Assembly (NCBI RefSeq): GCF_019679455.1
Contig: NZ_JAIEZQ010000001.1
Span: 1,178,001 to 1,242,000, forward strand
Direction: 5' to 3'
DNA length: 64,000 bases
DNA from: Nocardioides jiangsuensis
GTDB taxonomy: Bacteria > Actinomycetota > Actinomycetes > Propionibacteriales > Nocardioidaceae
Positions 57,794 to 61,972 of this stretch are shown one piece after another. The notes beneath the pieces were generated by a model. The model saw nothing but the letters and a program-made list of their open reading frames with translations. It made no database searches and was not told where the DNA came from. A program made the position numbers and the translations under genes. Position 1 is the stretch's first letter. Every line of letters starts with the position of its first letter.

Positions 57794-57922
57794 GGGAACC
57801 ACCTCCGGCCACGGGGGAAGATGAGGGGTGGATCTTGAGTGTGACCCCGGCCACAGTCTTGTGACAAGGGCCATGACCCCGCCATTTGGCCGCGGTCGGC
57901 GGTATTGGGTCTAATCGACGAC

Positions 57923-58375
57923 GTGGCCTCCGACTATCGATTCTCCCAGCCCCTGATCGCCCGCTTGCTGGGGTTCTTCCTGGCCGGCCTCGGCGTGCTG
58001 GTCTTCCTGCTCACCGCCGCGGTCGGGCTGTTCGCGCTGCCCGTGGTCGTGCTGACCGTGGGCGTCGTCCTCGCGGTCGTCGCGGTGTTCGTCGGGGGCG
58101 CCCTGCTGACCCGCAACGGCACCGTGGTCCGGCTCGACGACGAGGGCTACCAGGTGCGCTTCGTGCGCGGCGCGGGGGTGAAGCAGGCGCGGTGGAAGGA
58201 CGTCGAGGACGTGGTCGCCACCACCGTGGCCGACGAGCGGTGCGTGGTGCTCCGGCTGCGCGACGGCCGGACGACGACGATCCCGGTGCGGGCCCTCGCC
58301 GGCAGCCCCGACGCCTTCGTCAAGGACCTCCAGGTCCACCTGAACAAGGGGCACGGGTACCGCCGGCTGAACTGA
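57923..58375 (+). CDS. Membrane protein with two TM helices and a beta-rich tail
   Basis: 150 residues from the GTG at 57923 (a TTG at 57905 would add six). Two hydrophobic segments at about 14-38 and 41-62 then a C-terminal region with PH-like beta pattern (VVRLDDEGYQVRFV ... ARWKDVEDVVATTV). Function unknown. Weak or no Shine-Dalgarno; TATTGG/TAAT upstream may be a promoter giving a very short leader. Confidence 0.72.
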   Translation: MASDYRFSQPLIARLLGFFLAGLGVLVFLLTAAVGLFALPVVVLTVGVVLAVVAVFVGGALLTRNGTVVRLDDEGYQVRFVRGAGVKQARWKDVEDVVATTVADERCVVLRLRDGRTTTIPVRALAGSPDAFVKDLQVHLNKGHGYRRLN

Positions 58376-60425: not shown

Positions 60426-60441
60426 CTGCAGAAAAATGCAG
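60426..60441. promoter_or_regulatory. TGCA-N6-TGCA dyad upstream of the peptide gene
   Basis: CTGCAGAAAAATGCAG: perfect CTGCA...TGCAG arms with an AT-rich 6-bp centre, about 110 bp before the peptide start codon and 54 bp before a TAGATA -10-like element. Candidate binding site for the adjacent regulator or another factor. Confidence 0.45.
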
Positions 60442-60549
60442 TGCACACTCATGAGGGTTCGTTTGGTGGCCGAAGTGGCGTGCGTGCCTGACACTAGATA
60501 CAGGCCACAGTCCTCGTGGCTCCGCACCAACTACCCAAGAGGTTGACCG

Positions 60550-60723
60550 ATGAAGAAGACGCGGTTCGCAGCCAGGATCATTGCAGGCGCTCTGGCCTCG
60601 GCTGTCATCCTGACCGGATCGCTTGCCGGTCCTGCTCAGGCTAAGAACGACACCGGCTGGCCGACGGGCGCCAAGAGCGGTGACACCTCGGTCCTGAAGG
60701 ACACGGGCTGGCCGACCGGCTGA
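60550..60723 (+). CDS. Secreted mini-protein with duplicated DTGWPTG heptapeptide (candidate signal peptide precursor)
   Basis: 57 residues, ATG at 60550 with AAGAGG 7 bp upstream, TGA at 60721. Residues 1-31 are a textbook Sec signal peptide: basic KKTRFAAR start, hydrophobic core IIAGALASAVILTGSL and a cleavage site AQA before Lys32. The predicted mature chain has only 26 residues and includes DTGWPTG at 34-40 and again at 51-57, the latter being the exact C-terminus. No Cys, so not a disulfide or lanthipeptide type. It is divergent in orientation from a TrmB/LuxR-like regulator gene whose stop lies about 200 bp downstream, with a 6C-type sRNA between. Resembles a processed pheromone precursor; function is inferred. 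Confidence 0.85.
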   Translation: MKKTRFAARIIAGALASAVILTGSLAGPAQAKNDTGWPTGAKSGDTSVLKDTGWPTG

Positions 60724-60795
60724 CCGTGACGTGTAGCGCTCGATCTCGGGCGAGCGGCACAAAGATGCGCCGGCCAAGGCCGTGCGCCACATAGT

Positions 60796-60914
60796 TTGAG
60801 ACAGGGACGACGGAGTCATCCCCCCCGACTCCTCGATCCCAGTGCCATCCCCCCGGCCTGTCTCAACCTCGCGAGGGCAGACATGTATTGCACATGATCT
60901 GCCCTCGCTTATTT
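60796..60914 (+). ncRNA. 6C-type small RNA with terminator
   Basis: Outer stem TTGAGACAGG/CCTGTCTCAA (60796-60805 with 60857-60866) encloses a hairpin GGAGTC-ATCCCCCCC-GACTCC (60812-60832), and a second run CATCCCCCCG lies at 60847-60855. Two C6-or-longer runs in a stem-bearing RNA are the hallmark of actinobacterial 6C RNA (B11 in mycobacteria). A strong terminator follows: GCGAGGGCAGA at 60871-60881, inner CATGT/ACATG, complement at 60898-60908, then TTATTT. Exact 5' end is uncertain (CATAGT -10-like element at 60790-60795). In mycobacteria 6C acts by C-rich loops on G-rich ribosome sites. Confidence 0.8.
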
Positions 60915-60919
60915 ATGCC

Positions 60920-61972
60920 CTATGTGTCGCTGGACGCATTCTCTTCGGCAGCCTCGGACTCGACGCCTGCCGTCGGGTCTACGGCATCTGCGTCGGTAGC
61001 GGCAGCGCCCATGGCGTGCCCGAGCTGGAAGCGTGTCTGCACGCCGTACTCGTCCTTGAGGGCCGCGATGTACCCGGCGTAGGTGCGTGTGCTGACTCCG
61101 AGGCGCTTGGCGCTGGCCGGGTCGCTGTGACCCTCGACGAGGAGACGGATGGTCATCGCGCGGACATCCGAGGCGATGCTCCGCTCGTTCTTGGCGTCAT
61201 GAGCCGTGAATGGGCGTGCCCGCTCCCATGAGCGTTCGAAGATGTCGACCAGGTAGTCGATCAGGGACCGATCGTGGATCGCGATCGCGACGTGGTCGCC
61301 GGCTGCCCCAGGGATGATCGCGACGTAGCGGTCGACGACGATGAGCCGGTTGAAGAATTCGTCGAGGGTGCGCACCTCGGCACCGTGCTGGGTGACCTCT
61401 CCGACGTACTCACGCGTCGCGGGGCTCTGGCGCGCAGAGTGCTGGTAGAGCGTGCGCATCTTGATACCGCGGTTCAGGGCCTGGATGTCCCGGTTGACCG
61501 CCAGAGCCAGCTGCGGAGCCGGACGTCGGCCGTGCGGCTGGGCGGTCAGCAGCTCCTTGCGGCAGTCGCTGACTGCGGCCTGGATGTAGCTGTTGATGTT
61601 GGCGAAGCCCCGGACCTCGGTGATGGGCCGAGAGGACAGATGCGGGGACTTTCGGTACGTCTGACCGAGGTTCGTAAAGACGCCTGCCCATCGGGCTGAC
61701 TCGGTGAGGAGGTCCGCACCCTGCTGTCCGAGGGGGACCACCACCCGTGACTGCACCTCAGCAGGGTCAACGGGGTAATACTGAGTCGCTTCATCGTCGA
61801 AGCGAAGCAAGCCGATATCGATCAGAAGCTCGAGGGCCGGACGAAGTTCCGACCCCTCTTGCAGCCTGGGATCTTCGGCGTCGAGGTGCCCGTGAGCCAC
61901 TGCGTTGGCATAGATACGGCTCGCGTGCGTCTCCAAGAGCTCTCGCTCCTCAGGGCCGTACCGTGCAGCCAC
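60920..61972 (-). CDS. TrmB-like/LuxR-type transcriptional regulator
   Basis: 350 residues from the GTG at 61972 behind a strong GGGAGG. N-terminal winged-helix-like region (about 10-70: AEDPRLQEG...ALELLIDIGLLRFDDEATQYYPVDP), a central TrmB/PLD-like sensing region with RTLYQHSARQSPATREYV and AEVRTLDEFFNRLIVVDRYVAIIPG (173-222), and a C-terminal LuxR-type HTH at about 272-318 (LLVEGHSDPASAKRLGVSTRTYAGYI). The acidic C-terminal tail is not conserved. No signal peptide. This combination is frequent in Streptomyces and relatives with unknown ligands. Neighbours: convergent peptide gene and 6C RNA on one side, pckG on the other, in the same direction. Confidence 0.85.
   Translation of the reverse strand: MAARYGPEERELLETHASRIYANAVAHGHLDAEDPRLQEGSELRPALELLIDIGLLRFDDEATQYYPVDPAEVQSRVVVPLGQQGADLLTESARWAGVFTNLGQTYRKSPHLSSRPITEVRGFANINSYIQAAVSDCRKELLTAQPHGRRPAPQLALAVNRDIQALNRGIKMRTLYQHSARQSPATREYVGEVTQHGAEVRTLDEFFNRLIVVDRYVAIIPGAAGDHVAIAIHDRSLIDYLVDIFERSWERARPFTAHDAKNERSIASDVRAMTIRLLVEGHSDPASAKRLGVSTRTYAGYIAALKDEYGVQTRFQLGHAMGAAATDADAVDPTAGVESEAAEENASSDT

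Follow-up and report, generated by a model that had tools for sequence, protein, structure and literature searches.

D-x-x-W mini-protein precursors and an adjoining TrmB/LuxR-type regulator: a putative peptide-signalling pair in actinobacteria

RESULTS

The precursor gene and its convergent neighbour

The window, i.e. the whole stretch of 64,000 nt analysed here (positions 1,178,001 to 1,242,000 of contig NZ_JAIEZQ010000001.1 of Nocardioides jiangsuensis), carries a small ORF and a convergent regulator gene whose features are collected in Table 1. The translation of the small ORF is MKKTRFAARIIAGALASAVILTGSLAGPAQA^KNDTGWPTGAKSGDTSVLKDTGWPTG*. The original prediction had described it as a 57-residue secreted precursor devoid of Cys, with an AQA cleavage site (residues 29-31), two DTGWPTG heptapeptides and a good ribosome site, and each of these elements was confirmed from the sequence. 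Synonymous codons distinguish the two heptapeptide copies (ACC/ACG and ACG/ACC). The precursor had no Pfam or NCBIfam match; thiovarsolin-type RiPP precursors (NF033878), which also gave no match with it, were rejected as a candidate family, one Streptomyces precursor scoring 19.6 bits against a curated cut-off of 35.

Table 1. Positions of the features in the window and, for two RNA copies, elsewhere in the genome
Feature	Position	Strand	Evidence
Predicted operator TGCA-N6-TGCA-N-TGCA-N6-TG upstream of the precursor, TGCAGAAAAATGCAGTGCACACTCATG	60427..60453	+	only match within the window
Ribosome-binding site AAGAGG, 7 nt before the ATG	60537..60542	+	sequence
Putative peptide-signal precursor, 57 aa, two D-T-G-W cores	60550..60723	+	sequence, homologue search, repeat constraint
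Sec signal peptide, residues 1-31, predicted AQA cleavage site	60550..60642	+	sequence; layout shared by 129 homologous loci
Peptide copy 1, DTGWPTG, residues 34-40	60649..60669	+	sequence, repeat constraint
Peptide copy 2, DTGWPTG, residues 51-57 (exact C-terminus)	60700..60720	+	sequence, repeat constraint
Structured C-rich RNA with intrinsic-terminator hairpin, probable end of the precursor transcript	60793..60908	+	covariance model R1 (this sequence among those it was built from), 83.4 bits, E 1.6e-13
Predicted cytosolic peptide receptor/regulator, 350 aa, convergent	60920..61972	-	profile search, AlphaFold2, Foldseek
Regulator residue 172 (Met), tracks core position 2	61457..61459	-	covariation, Nocardioidaceae
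Regulator residue 162 (Asp), predicted reader of the position-2 Ser/Thr hydroxyl; also tracks position 3	61487..61489	-	covariation
Regulator residue 158 (Ala), tracks core position 3	61499..61501	-	covariation, both groups
Regulator residue 141 (Leu), predicted reader of core position 2	61550..61552	-	covariation, both groups
Two further genome copies of the C-rich RNA	G000:C1:1622145-1622265 (L395); G000:C2:720441-720554 (L396)		each downstream of the same operator

The regulator had no Pfam or NCBIfam match at the gathering cut-off either. It comprises a TrmB-type winged HTH (residues about 1-70), a PLD-like effector domain (about 116-257) and a LuxR/GerE-type HTH (about 260-330): profile searches aligned TrmBL2 over residues 18-254 (E 8e-13) and the DosR/DevR HTH over about 265-328. 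An AlphaFold2 model computed from a 48-sequence alignment (pLDDT 89) retrieved, with Foldseek, TrmBL2 (5bpi, E 5.9e-14), TrmB (3qph), the TrmB sugar-binding domain (2f5t) and the PLD-fold nuclease Nuc (1byr). The protein is probably cytosolic, since no transmembrane segment is evident by eye. It contains no TPR repeat according to Pfam, and none appeared among the listed Foldseek matches; in the profile search only its HTH resembles LuxR-type proteins, with no autoinducer-binding domain. The pair is flanked by a metallophosphoesterase-type protein and a PEP carboxykinase-like ORF (the latter named by sequence inspection only). Among the neighbouring ORFs we recognised no AHL synthase and no combination of membrane histidine kinase and processing enzyme, and no importer or protease gene lies beside the pair. 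Further upstream, at 57905-58375 (+), is a small membrane-protein gene (..WKDVEDVVATTVADERCVVLRLRDGRTTTIPV..) with relatives on the same side of the pair in four other loci (L096, L126, L147 and L168); its synteny with the pair is conserved.

A family of precursors in Nocardioidaceae

The regulator was detected in 223 of 299 Nocardioidaceae genomes (E <= 1e-10), with named members in Nocardioides, Marmoricola and Pimelobacter. A tblastn-type search, in which matches above about E 0.001 were mostly chance and were kept only if they lay beside the regulator, yielded homologous small ORFs with duplicated D-x-x-W blocks of their own. These blocks differ from one homologue to the next but match internally (DTGWGGT/DTGWGGV, DTGWGKV/DTGWG, NDTGWNGT twice, RDTSWPS twice), and all of these homologues, together with one single-block locus (DTGWPF), adjoin the same regulator. 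A convergent mini-ORF with signal peptide and motif was present at 129 of 132 Nocardioidaceae regulator loci (128 if one ATSW variant is set aside), the stop codons of the two genes being a median 157 bp apart; by the search rules the precursor was absent at two loci, and one further locus stops at a contig end. As a control, D-x-x-W occurred in only 3 of 72 same-strand small signal-like ORFs from the same stretches. In named records the pair was found at 73 of 79 loci, e.g. in N. cavernae, N. albus (DITWG, three copies), N. luteus (DTTWPN, two copies) and P. simplex.

The commonest Nocardioidaceae cores were DTGW (43), DTSW (32), DTTW (17) and DSSW (15), followed by DITW, DSGW, DYTW and others, in one to six copies per precursor; over the whole family, these secreted mini-proteins carry one to ten copies. 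When there is a single copy, it directly follows the signal-peptide site in one genus (g7, Nocardioides) and is C-terminal in another (g5), so that the ends of the mature peptide are uncertain. In one sub-group of Nocardioides (L060, L097, L109, L121 and others) the core is followed by a Cys pair, as in DTSWGCGGYC, possibly the mark of a cyclised signal.

The constraint acting on the core was estimated from 68 successive repeat pairs. These displayed 47 synonymous differences in the core against one real amino-acid difference (DTSW/DTAW, L037), the remaining counted non-synonymous steps being a Ser codon switch. Core pS was 0.344 and pN 0.004, i.e. a ratio of 0.013, compared with a pN/pS of 0.87 for the three residues just before the core. 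Because the search pattern fixed D and W, the information comes from the two residues between them, which are identical within a precursor and differ between precursors. Judging from this codon pattern, the duplicated core is under protein-level selection. The original prediction would have been refuted by a lack of homologous small ORFs at the locus, by loss of the repeat in relatives or by codons free of protein-level constraint; what we found instead is that signal-peptide ORFs with D-x-x-W stand beside TrmB/LuxR-like regulators, where it had suggested looking for them, and that they keep the repeat, in varying copy number, under the constraint just described. The ORF is short and unannotated in Pfam and NCBIfam, as a chance ORF or a low-complexity repeat without function would be; conservation, repeat codon pattern, linkage and the covariation reported below all contradict such an origin, whose probability we consider negligible in view of the comparative data.

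A shared operator and its candidate targets

The TGCA-N6-TGCA-N-TGCA pattern was found upstream of the precursor at 96 of the 129 homologous loci, with its end at a median distance of 100 bp from the start codon; shuffled upstream sequences gave 0-1 for parts of the pattern. It was not seen before the regulator gene itself (0/32), and the exact operator is missing upstream of the precursors of one sub-clade (DTGWGWR).

The 14-base exact operator occurs at three places in the whole window genome, two of which lead C-rich RNAs (see below). In 12 other complete genomes it was almost confined to precursors, with six further places and none for the reversed control. Four of these six are at secreted zinc metalloprotease genes (L459, L456, L458 and L446): an M4 enzyme (E 1e-48, operator 89 bp upstream), an M6 enzyme (E 3e-76, 166 bp), a matrixin-like enzyme (85 bp) and an M43 enzyme, with an additional TGCA-N6-TGCA-N-TGCA site some 100 bp ahead of its own start.

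One-mismatch operators, which are weak by count alone, were noted in the window genome 78-110 bp upstream of secreted choice-of-anchor-B/LVIVD proteins (G000:C1:213321, L402; G000:C2:694221, L404). One of the two sites sits between two divergent genes of this type, and the genes concerned have strong ribosome sites. Sites with two mismatches were no commoner than in the reversed control and were ignored.

A structured C-rich RNA downstream of the precursor

The segment between the two convergent genes folds into an outer stem enclosing two hairpins with C-rich loops, followed by a terminator (MFE -60.8, z -8.5 versus shuffles for 60793-60908). C-runs alone are weak evidence, as shuffles give runs too (67/94 and 28/94), and a covariance model, R1, was therefore built; compensatory changes affect 17 of the 24 consensus pairs among 27 sequences. 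The window genome has exactly three R1 copies, all three among the building sequences of the model, and they are at exactly the three exact-operator places. In 11 of 12 other genomes, most of which did not enter the model, R1 detected a single copy, located at the precursor, so that the precursor mRNA is likely to terminate in a regulatory RNA.

The 6C RNA of actinobacteria (Rfam RF01066) resembles these elements in having hairpins with C6 loops, but neither the window nor the two other copies gave a match at the gathering score of that family. The best 6C RNA match of the genome lies elsewhere (G000:C1:1316550-1316622, L428); with 45.6 bits it is just under the cut-off of 47 and looks genuine.

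The pair in Streptomyces, on plasmids and in phages

The regulator was found in 114 of 121 Streptomyces species (E <= 1e-60). There the precursor, which usually begins VRTKPTM, is divergent from the regulator and about 110-140 bp away from it, and carries up to ten core copies (e.g. nine DSTW, seven DIGW or six DIAW). A single xx type is used throughout 58 of 60 multi-copy precursors, with about 26 types across 69 species. Some precursors depart from the core Asp in the same way in all copies: EISW repeats (L327 and L342) have Glu, NTSW/NSSW repeats (L381 and L388) have Asn. At G654:C1:2007032-2010961 and comparable loci of Streptomyces, a single precursor is surrounded by an array of three or four regulator paralogues. 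Two Streptomyces plasmids also bear the pair, one (L302, DTGWGAP in three copies) beside an NRPS/MbtH cluster and the other (L303, GDSAWG) beside a ketoarginine-pathway (2-ketoarginine methyltransferase) cluster; control of antibiotic clusters by these pairs is possible.

A genome of another class (G599, L072) has a precursor ending in YDTGWD. The pair is divergent there, as in Streptomyces and phages, and convergent in Nocardioidaceae, hence the adjacency has outlived rearrangement. Such a mini-ORF does not accompany the more distant TrmB-LuxR relatives (about 15), so that the trait is the mark of a clade. The TGCA operator is absent from the promoters of the phage, S. globosus and G599.

In Streptomyces phage Chymera (KU958700, L301:3388-4663) the pair is in the lysogeny region beside the integrase and immunity repressor genes, between the integrase and an XRE-type gene. 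The precursor, SEA_CHYMERA_30, reads ...AQA^DPGWG...NDPGWG*, and the regulator, SEA_CHYMERA_29, is divergent from it. The pair also occurs in related prophages and viral contigs (L307, L308 and L309). In two of these contigs, whose regulators are 88% and 68% identical, the two DPGWG copies have been retained despite a different signal and spacer; the fourth viral contig has a single terminal DVGWG. The phage regulator aligns with TrmB-LuxR relatives, with no AimR homology and no PHROG match, and a BFVD fold search returned no clear viral TrmB-LuxR regulator. The Chymera pair is a candidate for an arbitrium-like system, an effect on lysogeny being suggested by its position. It shares with the AimP-AimR arbitrium of Bacillus phages the association of peptide precursor and regulator in the lysogeny region, and differs from it in the peptide and in the unrelated fold of the receptor.

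Covariation between peptide core and regulator

Mapped onto a tree of the regulators from Nocardioidaceae (127 sequences), the core shows 20 changes at position 2 (the first x of D-x-x-W) and 17 at position 3. With no more than 3-5 pairs available, independent-pairs tests lacked power; we therefore used a parsimony co-change test against randomly placed changes weighted by branch divergence, with p-values that ignore tree uncertainty. For position 2, residue 141 came first of 233 columns (z 6.5, family-wise p_max <0.0005), with 10.4 shared branches for 2.2 expected; with a tree built without the tested columns, it coincided on 11.5 of 19-20 changes. Residue 172 was second (z 5.1, p_max 0.002). 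For position 3, residue 162 reached a p_max of 0.05 and residue 158 ranked second of 233. The test was then repeated on Streptomyces, a second group, for columns fixed in advance. Residue 141 was again first for position 2 (of 170 columns, z 6.0), followed by residue 162 (p_max 0.015), and residue 158 was first of 170 for position 3 (p_max 0.028); residue 172 alone was not replicated there.

Simple pairing rules emerge when the residues are considered. In Nocardioidaceae, Thr at position 2 goes with Leu141 (87/96) and never with Met141, Ser goes with Met141 (16/19), and, at position 3, Gly goes with Asp162 (47/47) and Thr with Glu162 (24/28). The pair of the window (Thr; Leu141, Asp162, Met172) obeys the rule of its family. 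In Streptomyces, Ser at position 2 means Met141 plus Asp162 (31/31) and Thr means Val141 plus Asp162 (15/15); with aliphatic residues (I, L or V), Val, Ile or Ala at 141 is combined with Gly, Ala or Ser at 162 (23/23), Asp162 being found in 0 of 23. The phage receptors for DPGW, a core without the hydroxyl, have Ala162. In the AlphaFold2 model, residues 141 and 172 are on strands and 158 and 162 on a helix of the PLD-like domain. The covariation predicts that the peptide contacts residues 141, 158, 162 and 172.

We regard the covariation on the regulator tree as the decisive result: the residue code is near-perfect in Streptomyces, and the pattern indicates that the peptide and the neighbouring regulator have changed together in evolution, which argues for a peptide rather than a sugar as the ligand. 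It also bears on two other explanations. One is an exported antimicrobial or competition peptide that is not the ligand of the regulator and is merely expressed under its control. A small secreted peptide with species-specific variants would suit this role, and the regulator with its operator might represent no more than routine control of transcription; we nevertheless hold it to be improbable, because the core changes with effector-domain residues in two groups and is only four residues long, and because the two genes have no immunity or modification gene between them. The other is a peptide perceived on the surface of the cell through an unlinked receptor, the regulator answering to something else, e.g. 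a sugar as in TrmB, to whose sugar-binding family its fold belongs. This would leave unexplained both the covariation of residues 141, 158 and 162 with the peptide and the near-constant pairing of the two genes in convergent, divergent and phage arrangements, and seems very improbable.

DISCUSSION

From the above analysis, we consider it highly probable that the locus encodes both a secreted peptide signal and the DNA-binding receptor dedicated to it, working through export, re-entry, binding and operator control. Sec would export the precursor, cleavage would follow AQA, and trimming of the two D-T-G-W blocks would give a peptide of about 4-7 residues starting at Asp. This peptide would be taken up again, an oligopeptide ABC importer being the probable route, and would bind the PLD-like domain of the convergent regulator. 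To judge from the replicated covariation, residues 141, 162 and 172 would read the first variable residue, and residues 158 and 162 the second. The loaded regulator would bind the TGCA-N6-TGCA-N-TGCA operator through its LuxR-type HTH and, as operator positions suggest, switch on the precursor (a positive feedback) together with the C-rich RNA at the end of its transcript. Further targets may be secreted metalloproteases in relatives and, in the window genome, the two other C-rich RNAs and probably the choice-of-anchor-B proteins. The likely role is a density- or secretion-dependent control of exoprotein production.

The same genes and covariation, with the same receptor and operator, would also fit a self-monitor of secretion and import, in which the cell reads its own re-imported peptide as a gauge of secretion or of the state of the medium, with little cell-to-cell exchange; targets that are secreted proteins even suit a secretion monitor. 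This reading is rather unlikely, although it is to be taken seriously: the high diversity of core types between Streptomyces species looks as if private signals had been selected, and a pure self-monitor would have no need of these.

A secreted signal read by its neighbouring regulator is also what the original prediction had proposed in calling the ORF the precursor of a peptide messenger. The adjoining regulator with TrmB fold and LuxR-type HTH, the selection on the core and its covariation with the regulator in two groups all lend support to this reading. The analogy with Phr, which the prediction had drawn, stands as far as the logic is concerned and fails for the receptor, which is not a TPR/RRNPP protein. 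Like the RRNPP systems of Bacillota (Rap-Phr, PlcR-PapR, NprR-NprX, PrgX, AimR), the pair combines a Sec-exported mini-precursor containing short peptide copies with an adjacent gene for a predicted cytosolic DNA-binding receptor (the small exported propeptide gene being present at 129/132 loci), a predicted loop of export, processing and import, and candidate exoprotease targets. PlcR and NprR control exoproteases. RRNPP receptors are TPR proteins, whereas the D-x-x-W regulator is actinobacterial, has a TrmBL2/TrmB/PLD fold according to the model and goes with a D-x-x-W core. We thus keep the system within peptide signalling as RRNPP-like, since it would work alike but lacks the defining feature of RRNPP.

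The other known systems are more remote. Archaeal TrmB and TrmBL2 have the same winged HTH and PLD-like effector domain; here, a C-terminal LuxR-type HTH is added, the predicted ligand is a peptide instead of a sugar, and a secreted precursor is encoded next door. LuxR-type AHL receptors are likewise signal-responsive regulators with a LuxR-type HTH, but the present regulator has no autoinducer-binding domain and no LuxI partner. Agr/ComX-type two-component signalling differs in the membrane histidine kinase and processing enzyme, neither of which adjoins the pair. The gamma-butyrolactone receptors (ArpA of Streptomyces) are used by the same bacteria; here there is no AfsA and the signal is gene-encoded. 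According to published descriptions, actinobacteria signal chiefly through small molecules, gamma-butyrolactones among them (PMC10075063, PMC4748050). In the open-access papers searched, we found no earlier description of a D-x-x-W peptide-regulator system.

To conclude, we think it probable that these pairs represent a second, unrelated class of signalling by gene-encoded peptides, in which the receptors are intracellular and have a PLD fold, the specificity code is readable, and exoproteases and C-rich RNAs are controlled. This class would have spread through actinobacteria, most Streptomyces included, and have been captured by a Streptomyces phage as an arbitrium-like lysogeny signal. Confirmation of binding would set the system apart as a class of its own within peptide signalling. 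Through the phage copy, peptide communication by phages would reach beyond Bacillus. Actinobacteria are the main antibiotic producers, and a near-universal peptide-signal locus of Streptomyces, with about 26 core types, would be a new layer of signalling in these bacteria.
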